Assembly (NCBI GenBank): GCA_030681795.1
Contig: JAUXRG010000078.1
Coordinates: 186,001-250,000, forward strand
Length of the DNA stretch: 64,000 bases
DNA from: Rubrivivax sp.
GTDB lineage: Bacteria; Pseudomonadota; Gammaproteobacteria; Burkholderiales; Burkholderiaceae_C
Direction of reading: 5' to 3'
Position numbers and translations under genes: made by a program. Under the pieces are notes generated by a model. It searched no databases and was not told the origin of the DNA. It saw nothing but the letters and a program-made list of their open reading frames with translations. Below are positions 16,985 through 50,761 of this stretch, one piece after another (the stretch's first letter is position 1; each line of letters opens with the position of its first letter).

Positions 16985-17098
16985 TCAGGCCTGCGTAACT
17001 GGCGATAGGGGCGGCTCGGCCCCGAGGTGGATTCCCACCGGGAAGCGCAGCCCGCTGCGCCTGCCGCAGCGGTGTCAGCCGTGCGCCTGGGCAGCCCC
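16985..17098 (+). ncRNA. ZTP (pfl) riboswitch upstream of glyA
   Basis: The leader matches the ZTP/pfl riboswitch architecture: the conserved GTAACTGGCGAT (16995-17006), a GGTGG/CCACC stem (17026-17039) running into CCGGGAAGCG, and the distal CGCCTGGGCAG block (17084-17094). These RNAs sense ZTP/ZMP, which build up when 10-formyl-tetrahydrofolate runs low, and glyA is a known target class. Binding would raise expression of serine hydroxymethyltransferase to refill one-carbon units. Family assignment is from consensus recall; a covariance search would settle it. Confidence 0.85.
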
Positions 17099-17101
17099 AG
17101 A

Positions 17102-34162: not shown

Positions 34163-34612
34163 TCAGACGAAACGGCGTGCGAACCGGGCATCCAGCGACC
34201 AGCGGCCCGGCCCCCACAGCAGCAGCCCGACCAGCAGGCTGCCCCACAGCTCATGCTGGGCCAGCGCCGCCGGCGCGATCTCGGCCAGGCTGATCACCGC
34301 CACGACGTTGACCACCGACAGCCCCGCCGCCGCGAAGCGCCCGGCCAGGCCCAGCGCCAGCAGCACGGGCAGGATGAGTTCGCCGGCCGTGCCGGCCAGC
34401 GCCGCCGCCTGGGGCGATAACAGCGGCACGTGGTACTCGTCGGCAAACAGCGCCAGCGTGGTATCCCAGTCGCGGATCTTGGTCAGCCCCGAAAGAAAGA
34501 AGGCCCGCGCCACGTAGAGCCGCGCCGCCAGCAGGGCCAGCGGCTGCAAGGTGTCGAGTGCAGCGATGACCCGGCGCGCGAGGGCCAGGGGTGCAGAAGC
34601 GGTCGTCGTCAT
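34163..34612 (-). CDS. bufD: DoxX-family membrane protein of the bufferin operon
   Basis: A 149-residue protein with four hydrophobic helices (LLAARLYVARAFFLSGLTKI, LAGTAGELILPVLLALGLAG, AGLSVVNVVAVISLAEI, GSLLVGLLLWGPG). ARAFFLSGLTKIRDWDTT is the typical DoxX start. Last gene of the operon; its ATG overlaps the bufC stop (ATGA). The equivalent in Cupriavidus gold-induced gene clusters is gigT. Exact role unknown. Confidence 0.85.
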   Translation of the reverse strand: MTTTASAPLALARRVIAALDTLQPLALLAARLYVARAFFLSGLTKIRDWDTTLALFADEYHVPLLSPQAAALAGTAGELILPVLLALGLAGRFAAAGLSVVNVVAVISLAEIAPAALAQHELWGSLLVGLLLWGPGRWSLDARFARRFV

Positions 34613-35406
34613 GTCGTCTCCTTGTGTGGCCGTGCCGTCACCGCCGCCAGGCCTTGCCGCTGCAGCACGGCGACCAGCCAGGGTTCGAAAGCGAAGTCCG
34701 CGCCGGCCGCCAGCAGCGCCTGCGCCAGCGGCCGGCCCGCGAGAACCGCTTCGGTGAAACGGGCTTCATCGTCGGCCAGGGCCCGCACCGTCGCTTGCCA
34801 GCCCTGGCGCGATACGAGCGCGGCTTCGCCCCGGCCCGCGGCGAAGGCCGCGCGCACGGCGTCGAAGCGGTCTTCGGCCTGGCTGCGATGGGCATGCCAG
34901 ATCGTCGCCACCGGGTGCGGCGAGCGGACCAGCGCCGTGCCGGGCGCCAGGCGCAGCCAGAGTTTTTCGGGGTCGTCGGTACCCAAGAGGTGAAGACCCG
35001 CCACGGCGCCGCCGTCGGCTGCGCGCTCGGCCCGGTGCACGGCCCACTCGAGGCGCGCCACGTCGCCCAGATAGGGTTCTTCGGCCAGCGATTCGGCGTC
35101 GGCCACGAAGGCCGGCAGCGCTTCGCCCCACAGGCCCATATCGCCGCGCAAGGGCGGGTGGCGTAGCCAGAAGGCGCGCGCCAGCGCGGCGAAGGACTCC
35201 TCGCCCAGCAGCTGCTGCAGCGTGGGGAAGGCCGCCGCGAGCGCGCGCTCGGCCAGCGCACCGGCGTTGGCGCGGTACGCCGCCAGGCCGCGCGCCAAAC
35301 CCTCGCCGTCGCGCAGCCAGCCGCCCACCACGCCGGGCCGGGCATCGGCGAGCAGGGCGCGCAACAGCATCTGCTGGCGCAGGGCTTCCTTGTCGCTTCC
35401 GGTCAT
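34609..35406 (-). CDS. bufC: DUF2063 partner of the bufferin-modifying enzyme
   Basis: A 265-residue DUF2063 protein (putative DNA-binding domain by name only). The start LRQQMLLRALLAD, GLAAYRANAGALAERALAAAFPTL and FWLRHPPLRGDMGLWGEALPAFV are the family pattern. In MNIO operons this protein acts as the peptide-recognition partner of the DUF692 enzyme. No ribosome site is seen before ATG 35406; a 9-bp RNA hairpin ends at the base preceding the ATG. Confidence 0.88.
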   Translation of the reverse strand: MTGSDKEALRQQMLLRALLADARPGVVGGWLRDGEGLARGLAAYRANAGALAERALAAAFPTLQQLLGEESFAALARAFWLRHPPLRGDMGLWGEALPAFVADAESLAEEPYLGDVARLEWAVHRAERAADGGAVAGLHLLGTDDPEKLWLRLAPGTALVRSPHPVATIWHAHRSQAEDRFDAVRAAFAAGRGEAALVSRQGWQATVRALADDEARFTEAVLAGRPLAQALLAAGADFAFEPWLVAVLQRQGLAAVTARPHKETT

Positions 35407-35439
35407 GTCAGTACCGCCCGGCCGCCCGAAGGTACTGAC
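35407..35439 (-). promoter_or_regulatory. Hairpin abutting the bufC start codon
   Basis: A perfect 9-bp inverted repeat (GTCAGTACC / GGTACTGAC) with a 15-base GC-rich loop. In the bufB-bufC mRNA its 3' arm is immediately followed by the bufC ATG, so it takes the place of a Shine-Dalgarno sequence. It could lower bufC translation, stabilise mRNA or mark a processing site. Confidence 0.55.
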
Positions 35440-35441
35440 GC

Positions 35442-35480
35442 GCCCCCTTGGGGGGCAGCCAACAAAGTGAGCGTGGGGGC
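35442..35480. repeat. GC-block hairpin repeat between bufB and bufC
   Basis: GCCCCC-TT-GGGGGGC (35442-35456) followed by CAGCC AACAAAGTGAGCG TGGGGGCTG. The CAGCC..GGGGGCTG part gives a second way to fold. It resembles the other G/C-block intergenic elements at 49515-49668 and 63455-63500. Confidence 0.55.
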
Positions 35481-35484
35481 TGTT

Positions 35485-36327
35485 TCATCTTAGAAGCACC
35501 GCTTCGGCCAACGCCGCCTCGTCGAGCAGGACCTCGAGCGCCGGCAGGTCGGTGTCCCATTCGATCAGCGTGGGCCGCGCGCCCAGCCGCTGCACGGCAT
35601 GGCGGAAGACCTGCCACACCGGCGCATGCACGCGGCTGCCGTGGTCGTCGATGACGAGGCTGCCGGTATCGTTGTAGCCGGCGAGGTGGATCTCGCCCAC
35701 GCTGGCCGGCGCGATGGCATCGACCCAGCGGCAGGCGGCCTGCACCGCGGCCGCTTCGCCGCCGCCCTCGTTGAGCGCATTCACCACCAGGTTGTTGACG
35801 TCCAGCAGCAGGCCACAGCCGCTGCGGCGCACCAGCTCGTTGAAGAACTCGGGCTCGGCGATGCAGTCGTCGGCCCAGTGCAGATAGGCCGAGAGGTTCT
35901 CGACCAGCAGCGGCCGGCGCAGCCGCTCCTGCACGCGCTGCACATTGGCCACCATGAGGTCCAGCGCGGCGGCCGTGAAGGCCACCGGCAGCAGATCGTT
36001 GCCGTGCACCACCGGGCCGCCCTGGCGGCGCGGGGCGCGGGCGAAGGAGGCGTGGTCGCTGACCCGGACCGGATCGATGCGCTGCACCAGCGCGGCCAGC
36101 CGCTCGAGGTGCCACTCGTCCAGGCCGGCCGCCGAGCCCAGCGACAAGCCCACGCCGTGCAGGCTCACCGGCCAGTGCCGCCGCGCCGCGTCCAGCACTT
36201 GCAGCGCCGCGCCGCCCTCGGCGAAGAAGTTTTCCGAGTGGACTTCCACGAAGGCCAGCGGCGGCGGCGCCGCGAGCAGCGCGGCGTAGTGCGGCTGGCG
36301 CAGGCCGATGCCGGTGTGATGAAACAT
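35485..36327 (-). CDS. bufB: DUF692 multinuclear non-heme iron oxygenase (MNIO)
   Basis: A 280-residue TIM-barrel enzyme of the DUF692/MNIO family. Metal-ligand and family motifs are visible: [76 protein letters not shown] and LIEWDTDLP. MNIOs use two or three irons to oxidise cysteines of a precursor peptide, in bufferins to thiooxazoles. It lies 34 bases after the precursor gene bufA. DUF692 proteins next to DUF2282 and DUF2063 are the defining bufferin-1 arrangement. Confidence 0.93.
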
Positions 36328-36361
36328 GACGGCGTCGGCCTGTGCGGAGTTCGGTGCCGGC

Positions 36362-36646
36362 TTACTTCTTGGCGCGGGCCTTGGCTTCTTCGGCCGTCAT
36401 GCCCTTCATGCTCTTGCAGGTGCCCTTGGGCACGTACTTCCACTCGTCGGGGCCCATGTCCACCTTGGCCTGGCCGGCGCAGGAGTGCGTGCCCGAGAGG
36501 TTGGCGCAATCGTTCTGGCCCGCCTTGGCGATGCCGAAACACTTTTCCTTGGCGCCGGCGTCCTTGTCCTGGGCAGCAGCCTGGCTGGCCAGGCCGAGAG
36601 CGAAGACGGAAGCGAGGGCGGAAGAAACGGCGATACGTGGGTTCAT
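36362..36646 (-). CDS. bufA: Bufferin precursor peptide (DUF2282)
   Basis: A 94-residue secreted precursor. Residues 1-25 are a Sec signal peptide ([20 protein letters not shown], then SQAAA). The mature part has four cysteines at 36, 47, 56 and 77: [15 protein letters not shown], then [13 protein letters not shown], and KGTC near the end, the DUF2282/bufferin-1 signature. In characterised relatives the two inner cysteines become thiooxazoles and the peptide binds copper. AGGAG lies upstream of ATG 36646. It is the first gene of bufABCD, the same content as the gig genes of Cupriavidus metallidurans. Confidence 0.92.
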
Positions 36647-36711: not shown

Positions 36712-36739
36712 TAGTCGCGGCCGCCGCGCGCTTCTTACA
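36712..36739 (-). promoter_or_regulatory. Candidate ECF-sigma promoter of the buf operon
   Basis: On the minus strand TGTAAG (36739-36734) and CGACTA (36717-36712) are 16 bases apart, about 65 bases before the bufA ATG. The pair resembles ECF-sigma promoters of the SigF type (TGTAAC and CGTC), which control bufferin genes in Caulobacter. Two positions differ from that consensus, so this is a candidate only. Confidence 0.4.
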
Positions 36740-36783: not shown

Positions 36784-37428
36784 TCAGGCCTCGGTGCCCC
36801 CGCTGACGCGCAGGTCCACCACCGTGGCCAGCGCCGTGGCCAAGGCCAGCCGCACCCCCTGGATCTGCGTGGCCAGCGGCAGGCTGGGCTGCGGCGTGGA
36901 CCCCACCGCCTGCTCGGGCAGCAACGGCAGGTGCATGAACCCGGCACGGCAGGCGCGGCGGCGCCTGAGGGCATGCATCAGGCCGAAGAACACATGGTTG
37001 CAGACATAGCTGCCCGCCGATGGCGACACCGAGGCCGGCAGACCGGCCTGGCGCAGCGCCTCCACCATGGCTTTCACGGGCAGCGTGCTGAAGTAGGCCG
37101 CGGGTGCGCCGCGCACCACGGGTTCGTCGATGGGCTGGGCACCGGCGTTGTCTTCGATGCGCGCGTCGTCGAGGTTGACGGCCACGCGCTCGATCGAGAA
37201 CTCGCCCCGCCCCGCGGCTTGGCCGAGTGCCAGCACCAGCACCGGCCGCTGCGTGGCCAGGGCATCCTGCAGCGCCTCCAGCGCCAGGCCGAAAGCGCAG
37301 GGCAGGCGCAGCACCTGCACCGTGGCCGGGCCGATGCGCTCGCCGTGCAGCGCCTGCGCCACCTCCCACGAGGGGTTGAGGGTCTCGCCGCCGAACGCGT
37401 CGAAGCCGGTGAGCAGGATCTTCTTCAT
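36784..37428 (-). CDS. pcp: Pyrrolidone-carboxyl peptidase
   Basis: A 214-residue C15 peptidase removing N-terminal pyroglutamate from peptides. [24 protein letters not shown] opens it, [22 protein letters not shown] follows, and [19 protein letters not shown] contains the catalytic Cys; the catalytic Glu ([13 protein letters not shown]) and His ([11 protein letters not shown]) regions are also present. ATG 37428 (MKKILL) with AGG ahead is preferred over 37437. It follows 5-oxoprolinase by 21 bases, so pyroglutamate made here can be opened to glutamate. Confidence 0.93.
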
Positions 37429-37449
37429 GCGCCTCATCGTAGCGCTGCG

Positions 37450-41085
<3,636 letters not shown>

Positions 41086-41180
41086 CGAAACGGTCCTCGT
41101 TCGGGGAAGCCCCTGGCCGGAGGCCACCGGGCACAGCCTATGCTAGCTGCCTTGTCACAGACCTACACGTTGGAGTGCCC

Positions 41181-48616: not shown

Positions 48617-49519
48617 ATGTACCTCGACCACTTCGGCCTGTGGGAGATGCCCTTCGGCCTGACCCCGGACACCGGCTTCACCTACCGCGCCAGCGCGCAC
48701 AGCGAGGCCCTGGCGACGCTGCGCGTGGCGCTGCGCGGCGGCGAAGGCTTCAACAAGATCACCGGCGAGGTGGGCACCGGCAAGACGCTGTTGTGCCGCA
48801 CGCTGCTCGCCACGCTGGCCGCCGAGGCCGAGGTGGTGAGTGCCTACCTGCCCAACCCCAAGCTCACGCCGCGCGAGCTGTTGCGCGCACTGGCCCGCGA
48901 ACTGCGGCTGCGCAACGACCGCCGGCTGGCCGAGACCGACCTGCACGGCATCCTGGAGGCCGGCCTGCTGGCCCTGGCCGCGCAGGGCCGCACCGTGGTG
49001 CTGTGCATCGACGAGGCGCAGGCCATGCCGCCCGAGACGCTGGAAGCACTGCGCCTGCTCTCCAACCTCGAGACCGAGAAGCGCAAGCTGCTGCAGATCG
49101 TGCTCTTCGGCCAGCCCGAACTCGACGCCCAGCTCGCCACGCCGCTGGGCCGTGCGCTGGCCAGCCGCATCGGCTTTGCGGCGCAACTCGCACCCTTGCG
49201 CCGCCGCGAACTGGGCCACTACCTGAGCCACCGCATGAGCGTGGCGGGCTGGCGCGGGCCCGATGCCTTCACCGCCCCCGCGCGCTGGGCCCTGTGGTGG
49301 GCCAGCGGCGGCCTGCCGCGCAAGGCCAATATCCTGGCCCACAAATGCCTGTTGCTGGCCTACGGCGGCGGCGGCCACCGCGTGCGCCTGCACCACGCCT
49401 GGGTGGCGCTGCGCGACAGCGAGTTCGAAGTCCATCCGTCGATGACGGTGCCCCCGCGCCACCGCACCGCCGCGGGGGCGCGCGCCGCGTCCGCCACCTG
49501 GGCCGGGGCACCTACATGA
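48617..49519 (+). CDS. mshM: MshM AAA ATPase (ExeA-like)
   Basis: A 300-residue AAA protein beginning MYLDHFGLWEMPFGLTPDTGF, the typical ExeA/MshM start. Walker A GEVGTGKTLLCR, Walker B VVLCIDEAQAMP, and sensor FGQPELDAQL are clear. ExeA-like ATPases help assemble the secretin through the peptidoglycan. It ends two bases inside the first copy of a 77-bp tandem repeat. Confidence 0.9.
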   Translation: MYLDHFGLWEMPFGLTPDTGFTYRASAHSEALATLRVALRGGEGFNKITGEVGTGKTLLCRTLLATLAAEAEVVSAYLPNPKLTPRELLRALARELRLRNDRRLAETDLHGILEAGLLALAAQGRTVVLCIDEAQAMPPETLEALRLLSNLETEKRKLLQIVLFGQPELDAQLATPLGRALASRIGFAAQLAPLRRRELGHYLSHRMSVAGWRGPDAFTAPARWALWWASGGLPRKANILAHKCLLLAYGGGGHRVRLHHAWVALRDSEFEVHPSMTVPPRHRTAAGARAASATWAGAPT

Positions 49520-49668
49520 GCGCCGCCGGGCCGTTCCCAAGGCGCTCATTCCCCCCTGGGGGGACCGGCGCGCAGCGCCGCAGGGGGTGGACATGAGCGC
49601 CGCCGGGCCGTTCCCAAGGCGCTCATTCCCCCCTGGGGGGACCGGCGCGCAGCGCCGTAGGGGGCCGA
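49515..49668. repeat. 77-bp tandem duplication between mshM and mshN
   Basis: Two direct copies, 49515-49591 and 49592-49668, differing at three positions near their ends. Each starts CATGAGCGCCGCCGGG, contains CCCCCCTGGGGGG and a GGCGC-GCA-GCGCC hairpin, and ends with AGGGGG. The mshN start (GATGAGTG at 49669) resembles the beginning of a third copy. The first copy includes the mshM stop codon. Confidence 0.9.
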
Positions 49669-49669
49669 G

Positions 49670-50761
49670 ATGAGTGTCATCAACCGCATGCTGCGCGACC
49701 TGGACGCGCGCGCCGCGCGCACGCCGCAGCCGCTGGACACCCTGAGCGCGCACGCCGCCCCGGGGCCCAGGCCGGCGCGCTGGCGCCTGCCCGCGATCGT
49801 GGCGCTGGGGGGTGTGGCCATTGCGGTGGCGGCCTTCGCCGATTTCTCGCCCCGGGCGACCCGGCCGGTGGGGCCGGCGCGGGAACTCGCGCCGGCTCCA
49901 GCGGTGCCGGCCGAGCCCACGCGGCAAGCCGACGCACCCGCACCCGCATCCGCATCCGCGCTCGCACCCGCCGCAAGCCAGGCCCTGCCCGCTGCGCCCC
50001 CCTCGGGCGAGCCGTTGCTGGCGCTGGCCGCGCCGCGCCTGGGCACCCCGATGCCCGGCGATGCACAAGCCGCGCCCGACGCCGCCCTCCCCGCAGCGGC
50101 ACCCGCCGCCGCGCCACTGGAGGCCCTGATCGCGCGCGCCGCGCCGGCGCCGCTGCTGGCCACGCCACCGCGCATCGACAAACGCAGCGTGCCGCCCAGC
50201 GATACCCAGCGCGCCGCGGCGGCGCTGAGCGAGGCCATGGACCTGGCACGCGCCGGCCAGCGCCAGGCGGCGCTGCAGCGCGCGCTGCAGGCCCTGGCCA
50301 TCGAGCCGCGCCACGCCGGCGCGCGCCAGCTGGCGGCGGTGCTGCAACACGAATCCGGCGCAAGTGCGCAGGCCCTGGCCTTGCTGCGCGAGGGCGCCAC
50401 CATGGACGCCCCGCCGCCGGCGCTGACGCTGCTGCTGGCACGCCTGCTGGCCGCCCAGGGCCTGGCCGACGAGGCGCTGGCCGTGCTCGAGCGCCACGCC
50501 CTGCACAGTGCCGATGCCGAAGGCCTGCGCGCCGGGCTGCTCGCCCAGCAAGGCCAGTACGCCCGCGCCCTGCCCGCCTACGAGAACGCCACGCGCCAGC
50601 AACCGGGCAACCCGATGTGGTGGTTCGGCCTGGCCGTGGCGCTGGACTCCGAAGGCCAGGGCCCGCGCGCGCGCCAGGCCTACACCCTGGCGCACCAGCT
50701 CGGCCTGCCGCGCGAGGACCTCGCCACCTACGCCGAGCAACGCCTGCGCGCGCTCGACTGA
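49670..50761 (+). CDS. mshN: MshN-like TPR protein
   Basis: A 363-residue inner-membrane protein: the start SVINRMLRDLDAR is the classic GspB/MshN cytoplasmic tag, one helix follows (LPAIVALGGVAIAVAAFADF), then a long Ala/Pro-rich periplasmic linker and TPR repeats from about residue 180 (MDLARAGQRQAALQRALQALAIEPRHAGARQ in part). It links MshM to the pilus machinery. ATG 49670 follows GGGG from the repeat, with no good ribosome site. Confidence 0.84.
   Translation: MSVINRMLRDLDARAARTPQPLDTLSAHAAPGPRPARWRLPAIVALGGVAIAVAAFADFSPRATRPVGPARELAPAPAVPAEPTRQADAPAPASASALAPAASQALPAAPPSGEPLLALAAPRLGTPMPGDAQAAPDAALPAAAPAAAPLEALIARAAPAPLLATPPRIDKRSVPPSDTQRAAAALSEAMDLARAGQRQAALQRALQALAIEPRHAGARQLAAVLQHESGASAQALALLREGATMDAPPPALTLLLARLLAAQGLADEALAVLERHALHSADAEGLRAGLLAQQGQYARALPAYENATRQQPGNPMWWFGLAVALDSEGQGPRARQAYTLAHQLGLPREDLATYAEQRLRALD

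Follow-up and report, generated by a model that had tools for sequence, protein, structure and literature searches.

We analyzed a window of 64,000 nucleotides from Rubrivivax sp. (assembly GCA_030681795.1, contig JAUXRG010000078.1, forward-strand positions 186,001 to 250,000; all positions below are those of this whole stretch). The genome assembly is 4.18 Mb in 122 contigs and is 93% complete. The window contains a four-gene operon for a bufferin, bufABCD, and a dispersed repeat that occupies the junction between bufB and bufC. An earlier note, made from the sequence alone, had placed the four genes on one strand between 34163 and 36646, and all four open reading frames (ORFs) are there, on the minus strand:

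36362 to 36646, minus strand: bufA, Buf1 (DUF2282) bufferin precursor, 94 amino acids (PF10048, 92 bits; cut-off 22.4)
35485 to 36327, minus strand: bufB, MNIO (DUF692) maturase, 280 amino acids (PF05114, MbnB_TglH_ChrH, 302 bits; cut-off 25)
34609 to 35406, minus strand: bufC, MNIO partner protein with DUF2063 (PME-type 1), 265 amino acids (PF09836, 62 bits)
34163 to 34612, minus strand: bufD, DoxX-type membrane protein, 149 amino acids (PF07681, 58 bits)

The earlier note had assigned BufA to DUF2282 from its four cysteines, with a profile search of 36362 to 36646 as the test, and had named the other products as a DUF692 enzyme, a DUF2063 partner, and a DoxX protein; the Pfam scores bear out all four assignments. 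The cysteines of BufA are C36, C47, C56, and C77, and by eye its N terminus is hydrophobic and ends in AxA. For BufB, the top NCBIfam model is NF050167 (MNIO_BufB, bufferin maturase), and its relatives in PDB are 3bww, 8hci, and 7fc0. Many H, D, E, and N positions are at least 97% conserved across 80 BufB sequences, and the conserved residues are kept in the BufB of the window. The AlphaFold model of BufC (mean pLDDT of 92) matches TglI of TglHI (8hci_A, E = 1.4e-5) and also NGO1945 (3dee, E = 1.1e-3). The predicted fold is the one expected of a PME-type 1 partner. A DUF2063 domain fused to an RRE-type domain is supported as well, with the RRE part recognized by fold alone. Profile searches found one match to DUF2282 and one to the MNIO family in the genome.

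We also compared the operon to 80 buf loci, which are the best 80 of 432 qualifying stretches that were fetched with BufA alone as the query. The neighbors include bufB in 80 of 80 loci, bufC in at least 77, and bufD (DoxX) in at least 64; the last two counts are lower bounds because several of the loci end early. A DoxX gene is a common member of Buf1 clusters but is not present in all of them. Given the profile scores, and given that bufB lies near bufA in every locus, chance is excluded. The family models, the fold of BufC, and the gene order support the identification of 34163 to 36646 as a complete Buf1 (gig-type) bufferin operon, apparently intact, as the earlier note had proposed.

The operon itself is ordinary, one more member of a large family. 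We found 4,567 BufA-like proteins at E of 1e-3 or better (counting the BufA of the window), and the closest relative is 87% identical across 96% of the query. Across 81 sequences, 28 positions of BufA (the four cysteines and 24 others) are at least 95% conserved. Buf1 clusters with the same gene set have been described, as have thousands of Buf1 and Buf2 precursors, and the central cysteines are modified (PMC12452194). Another study supports thiooxazoles and proposes captophorins as the name of the class (PMC12668002). The suggestion in the earlier note that the mature region of BufA breaks new ground is therefore not supported.

By analogy with these systems, BufB and BufC would convert the two inner cysteines of BufA to copper-binding thiooxazoles, and BufA would be exported after modification as a periplasmic peptide, with DoxX helping at the membrane. 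The operon might handle another metal, for example gold, zinc, or chromium: the gig genes are reported to respond to both gold and copper (PMC5413113; PMC10304878), and sigma-F of Caulobacter serves chromium and cadmium responses (PMC3511200). We consider this unlikely, as the characterized bufferins sequester copper (PMC12452194) and gigPABT of Cupriavidus metallidurans is reported to be induced by copper and to make a small contribution to copper resistance (PMC10304878).

The earlier note had described the genes as tightly spaced. This is correct for bufA and bufB, which are 34 nt apart, and for bufC and bufD, where the start of bufD overlaps the stop of bufC (ATGA), but not for bufB and bufC, whose 78-nt gap went unremarked; the repeat in this junction and the conserved promoter motif described below were both missed. 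The gap is not a random spacer but a copy of a genome-wide, two-hairpin repeat. We modeled the repeat with a covariance model, R1, which was built from nine copies. The features of the junction are:

35407 to 35480, minus strand: copy of the dispersed repeat (R1 match, 92 bits, E = 1.3e-17)
35442 to 35456, minus strand: hairpin 1 of the repeat, GCCCCCC...GGGGGC (from the fold; 98.2% of cells paired in 46 copies)
35407 to 35439, minus strand: hairpin 2 of the repeat, with its 3' arm ending at the bufC start codon (from the fold and covariation)
35408 to 35488, minus strand: bridging mini-ORF of 26 codons (read directly from the sequence)

The 78 bases of the junction have at least 32 blastn matches in the genome, counting the copy itself (a lower bound, with 40 of 43 candidates scored). 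R1 has at least 51 matches at E of 0.01, again counting this copy, with 150 of 2,836 candidates scored; a tandem pair elsewhere in the window (49516 to 49669, described below) is not among the matches listed. In a scan of 150 genomes of the order at E of 1e-6, this genome had at least 27 matches, and 16 genomes, including this one, had at least one match to R1 (lower bounds, with 32 candidates scored per genome). R1 copies are 72 to 82 nt long, the repeat is 69% GC, and it is found in Burkholderiales and in Azoarcus. Some copies form tandem arrays, in which the period is 78, 82, or 83. Four copies in this genome (L100, L103, L104, and L108) share the 5' half of the repeat and have a different 3' half, which suggests that the repeat family is modular.

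At the bufB-bufC junction of the relatives, we usually found a direct overlap instead. In 66 of the 77 loci that have both genes, the junction is a 4-nt overlap, ATGA or GTGA, in frame with bufC; seven loci from the same genus (L130, L131, L137, L139, L141, L150, and L154) have ATGA. None of the 80 buf loci has an R1 match in this junction at E of 0.01, and at the same threshold the only copies elsewhere in these loci are two in L007 and one in L022.

The mini-ORF links the two genes across the repeat. Its ATG, at 35488, overlaps the TGA of bufB (ATGA); it crosses both hairpins; and its own TGA, at 35410 to 35408, ends one base before the ATG of bufC (TGACATG). Many other copies of the repeat have the same geometry. 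Among the 30 best copies in this genome, there are 22 in which an ORF of at least 80 codons opens with an ATG at the right edge. For 18 of the 22, an ATG at the left edge begins a mini-ORF that ends at that start codon, as TGAnATG or ATGA, which we call coupled; this becomes 19 if a TTG start is allowed for the mini-ORF. A long ORF also ends at the left edge in all 18. All three features of this geometry were found in 18 of the 30 best copies, as compared to 25 of 12,000 positions taken at random from these loci (some of them perhaps touching the repeat). When the opposite strand was used as a control, the count was 1 of 30.

When weak matches and both strands were included, 22 of 50 matches were coupled: 18 in the orientation of the model and 4 inverted. 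With the repeat excluded, 434 of 17,576 control positions were coupled; if the stop codon of an upstream gene is also required, the counts are 21 of 50 matches and 70 of 17,576 controls.

The length of the bridge varies, and so does its entry frame. We compared 29 coupled copies, which come from 10 genomes: the left and right ATGs are separated by 79, 82, 85, or 88 for TGAnATG junctions and 77, 80, 83, 86, or 89 for ATGA junctions. (These copies were selected as coupled, so it is the variety of lengths that is informative, not the remainder.) The frame in which the mini-ORF enters the repeat also differs among the 29 copies, whose peptides start PPRS, PHA/PQA, or PTL/PKL. Because the entry frames differ and the lengths vary, we conclude that the frame is kept but the peptide is not, and the peptide as such is probably unimportant.

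A second site in the window has the repeat in the other orientation:

49516 to 49669, plus strand: two tandem units (period 77) of a variant repeat, in the opposite orientation to R1 (R1 scores of 36.2 and 33.2 bits)

Here, each 77-bp unit is a mini-ORF, and all three junctions are ATGA. The flanking genes are an ATPase-like gene (identified by eye) and a gene that starts at 49670, both on the plus strand.

The hairpins raise another explanation for the repeat: it might act like a REP element, lowering or processing the downstream message so that less BufC and BufD are made than BufA and BufB, with the mini-ORF being incidental. The predicted two-hairpin fold has a free energy of -38.5 kcal/mol (z = -1.85; 8 of 200 shuffles were as stable), and the second hairpin, which ends at a start codon, covaries strongly: across 46 copies, 11 of its 13 modeled pairs have changes on both sides. 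The covariation score of the hairpins is 0.492, as compared to 0.133 for shuffled alignments and at most 0.086 for slid ones, in an alignment of the 46 copies that was fitted to the model. However, covariation by itself fails to explain why the exit frame is kept across lengths of 72 to 82 nt and with differing entry frames. Also, inverted copies are coupled too (4 of 50, and the pair at 49516 to 49669), and the second hairpin is followed by a start codon and not by a run of T. A REP-like role in place of coupling thus seems rather unlikely.

We then considered copies of the repeat in other genomes. We examined 26 of 27 newly fetched loci (L211 was left out), with a limit of 60 codons. An ATG start lies close to the right edge in 16 of these loci, of which 11 are coupled. 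The annotated gene pairs that flank the repeat include gnd-zwf and transporter genes in Variovorax, a kinase gene and cheB in Azoarcus, and UAAP2 and urea carboxylase in Burkholderia. In one locus (L200), the downstream gene has the same frame as the left ATG.

The repeat is also found in 13 plasmid or chromid records, all of which we examined at one place each. Nine of the 13 are coupled, with a mini-ORF that starts from an ATG in L190 to L192 and L194 to L196 and from a GTG in L189. In another (L193), the downstream frame has just 77 codons, while the other eight have at least 80, and L258 has a longer, composite element with a mini-ORF of 52 codons. Among the uncoupled records, L254 to L256 represent one shared site, and the repeat in L257 is flanked by genes on the other strand. 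In L255 (1495 to 1851), the left ATG is the annotated start codon of a gene for succinate dehydrogenase assembly factor 2, whose reading frame spans the repeat. Judging from the reading frames, copies such as those in L255 and L200 would extend the downstream protein at its N terminus rather than provide a coupled mini-ORF.

We also looked for duplication of the target at the two ends of the repeat. In one copy (L170), a stretch of 14 bp is duplicated, and the stop-start junction lies within it. Across 32 left-right pairs, 60 bases match at the two ATGs, as compared to a mean of 39.7 in permutations (p = 0.002), and 7 match right up to the boundary of the element, as compared to 2.1 by permutation (p = 0.001). 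Many of the left ends look as if they were carried by the element (ATGAAACAG).

As to how the repeat moves or where else it is found, the searches were negative. Rfam has no family for the repeat, and one copy of it had no match in phage records at E of 1e-3. Y1 transposases had no match in the 93%-complete assembly, and 5 of 14 control genomes were positive.

Overall, we believe that the Buf1 operon was interrupted at the seam between bufB and bufC by a mobile repeat that would preserve the translational coupling of the two genes, and we put the probability of this at roughly 70%. A ribosome that finishes bufB would re-initiate at the overlapping ATG, translate the 26-codon mini-ORF through both hairpins, stop at its TGA, and re-initiate one base later at the ATG of bufC. 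BufB and BufC would then stay coupled although the distance between their reading frames is 82 bases greater than in most of the relatives. More broadly, the repeat family would spread into stop-start junctions and survive where the bridge is kept.

Several points weigh against this account. First, coupling is far from universal: only 22 of the 50 matches that we tested in this genome are coupled once weak ones are included, and in the other genomes it is 11 of 16. Of the 13 plasmid records, 4 are uncoupled, albeit with three of these at a single site. Second, the copies share descent, so 18 of 22 does not represent 18 independent events; L199 and L209, and likewise L207 and L208, look like shared (orthologous) insertions. 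Third, target duplication is clear in just a few copies and modest overall, and the left ATG could come from either the target or the element. Fourth, the fold of the repeat is not exceptional in itself, and fitting the alignment to the model favors structure. Fifth, the NCBIfam score of BufB is slightly below the cut-off (307.1 versus 310 bits). Finally, coupling, the modification of the bufferin, and the binding of copper are all things that we infer.

The pattern could also reflect survivorship only: the element would insert widely, wrongly placed copies would be lost, and the element would have no adaptation for coupling. That the frame is conserved and the peptide sequence is not fits this explanation, as does the finding that the weaker copies are mostly uncoupled. 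On the other hand, the anatomy is the same as that of MIRUs, which are described as repeats that insert at start codons and contain an ORF coupled at a spacing of -4 (PMC12548453). We view survivorship as a serious possibility, falling a little short of an even chance. It overlaps with the preferred explanation, a bridge that keeps bufB and bufC coupled, as it concerns the origin of the pattern and not the bridge.

The repeat matters more than the bufferin operon does, as it bears on whether mobile elements evolve to keep coupling. It provides numerous natural insertions for which relatives have the uninterrupted junction, and these offer a test of how far translational coupling can stretch. 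A bridging repeat would also account for a class of very small ORFs and of odd gaps of 75 to 90 nt inside operons.

Upstream of bufA, we identified a putative promoter for an extracytoplasmic function (ECF) sigma factor:

36714 to 36739, minus strand: putative ECF (sigma-F-like) promoter, TGTAAG-N16-CGAC, 5' of bufA (motif conserved in relatives)

TGTAAG-N16/17-CGAC or a close variant is present 5' of bufA in 58 of 81 sequences; in 100 dinucleotide shuffles, the mean was 0.09 and the maximum was 1. The sigma-F site of Caulobacter is reported as GTAACC-N16-CGAA (PMC3511200). Across the genome, TGTAAG-N15..17-CGAC occurs twice. The second occurrence, among genes that by eye resemble secG and tpi, is probably due to chance, because the reversed control pattern gave seven occurrences.

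In 40 of the 80 buf loci, an ECF gene lies on the opposite strand 5' of bufA, and in 33 of those 40 it is within 300 nt. With an alignment of five bufA-linked ECF proteins as the query, 29 of 61 genomes had a match at E of 1e-20, but the 93%-complete assembly of this genome had none at this threshold. NrsF has no matches in the genome either; sigF-nrsF is an optional feature of Buf1 clusters, found in some of them. The genome has 5 matches to region 2 of sigma70 and 14 to region 4, and none of these was identified as the cognate sigma factor for the bufA promoter.

These absences raise the possibility that the operon is decaying, with bufC uncoupled by the insertion and the cognate sigma factor gone: the ECF gene that accompanies bufA in half of the loci is not matched here, and NrsF is absent. 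However, the four ORFs are intact, and the conserved residues of BufB and the promoter motif are kept. Three genomes of the same genus (G008, G016, and G025) also keep the motif with no match to the bufA-linked ECF, and the incomplete assembly does have other ECF-like genes, one of which is cut by the end of a contig. We consider decay to be very improbable.

Directly 5' of bufA, at 36784 to 41127, lie genes for pyroglutamyl peptidase (pcp) and 5-oxoprolinase, each of which is in the flank of 22 of the 80 related loci. A link to pyroglutamate, in which pcp is nearby and mature BufA would start with Gln, was considered and dropped: Gln is at +1 after the last AxA in 13 of 22 sequences with pcp nearby and in 24 of 57 without (2 of the 81 rows could not be scored; Fisher p = 0.21). 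Elsewhere in the window, there is a ZMP/ZTP riboswitch at 16985 to 17099 (50.9 bits).

Among known systems, the operon is comparable to gigPABT, which is described as a four-gene operon with a 94-amino-acid, four-cysteine precursor and with DUF2063 and DoxX-like members, as in the window (PMC10304878). gigPABT has a divergent ECF gene, as do many relatives of the operon in the window, where this gene is absent. The Buf1 bufferins (the Caulobacter bufferin; captophorins) likewise combine a DUF2282 precursor that has four cysteines with an MNIO, a DUF2063 partner, and DoxX. The operon in the window differs from these in lacking sigF-nrsF, in having the repeat between bufB and bufC, and in having the pcp and 5-oxoprolinase genes on its 5' side.

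For the repeat, REP/REPIN elements with their RAYT transposases share the character of a short, dispersed, palindromic repeat, but this genome has no match to a Y1 transposase, and the repeat in the window is placed between cistrons with a bridging ORF. Enterobacterial RU elements with ORFs, as described in PMC2759123, are another precedent for repeats that carry ORFs.

The repeat may be BRE (Hot et al. 2011), which is described as 75 to 91 bp long, 69% GC, single or in tandem, and present in Bordetella and Comamonadaceae (PMC3110155). The likeness is one of description, and it extends to size (77 to 89 bp from start to start here), GC content, taxa, and the tandem habit. The passages of that article considered here name MIRUs only in a list and do not mention stop-start coupling, and its authors left the function of BRE open. 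Our searches of the open-access literature, which omit most subscription papers, found nothing on stop-start coupling by a betaproteobacterial repeat. If the repeat is BRE, then BRE gains a testable role.

A counterpart in anatomy is the MIRU, which also occurs in tandem copies. Like the repeat in the window, MIRUs are short, lie at start codons, and carry an internal ORF that is coupled to the gene that follows, and a review describes them as apparently mobile (PMC12548453). The repeat in the window differs in that it is from another phylum, has two covarying hairpins, and has TGAnATG as well as ATGA exits; the likeness is one of anatomy. By this analogy, the repeat would work in Betaproteobacteria as MIRUs do in mycobacteria, through coupling that we infer. 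We lean slightly towards a more general proposal: Betaproteobacteria would carry small, mobile hairpin elements that colonize operons at stop-start overlaps, in different frames and in either orientation, and whose bridging mini-ORF hands the ribosome to the next gene. The element would then be the counterpart of the MIRU in another phylum, caught inside a bufferin operon.

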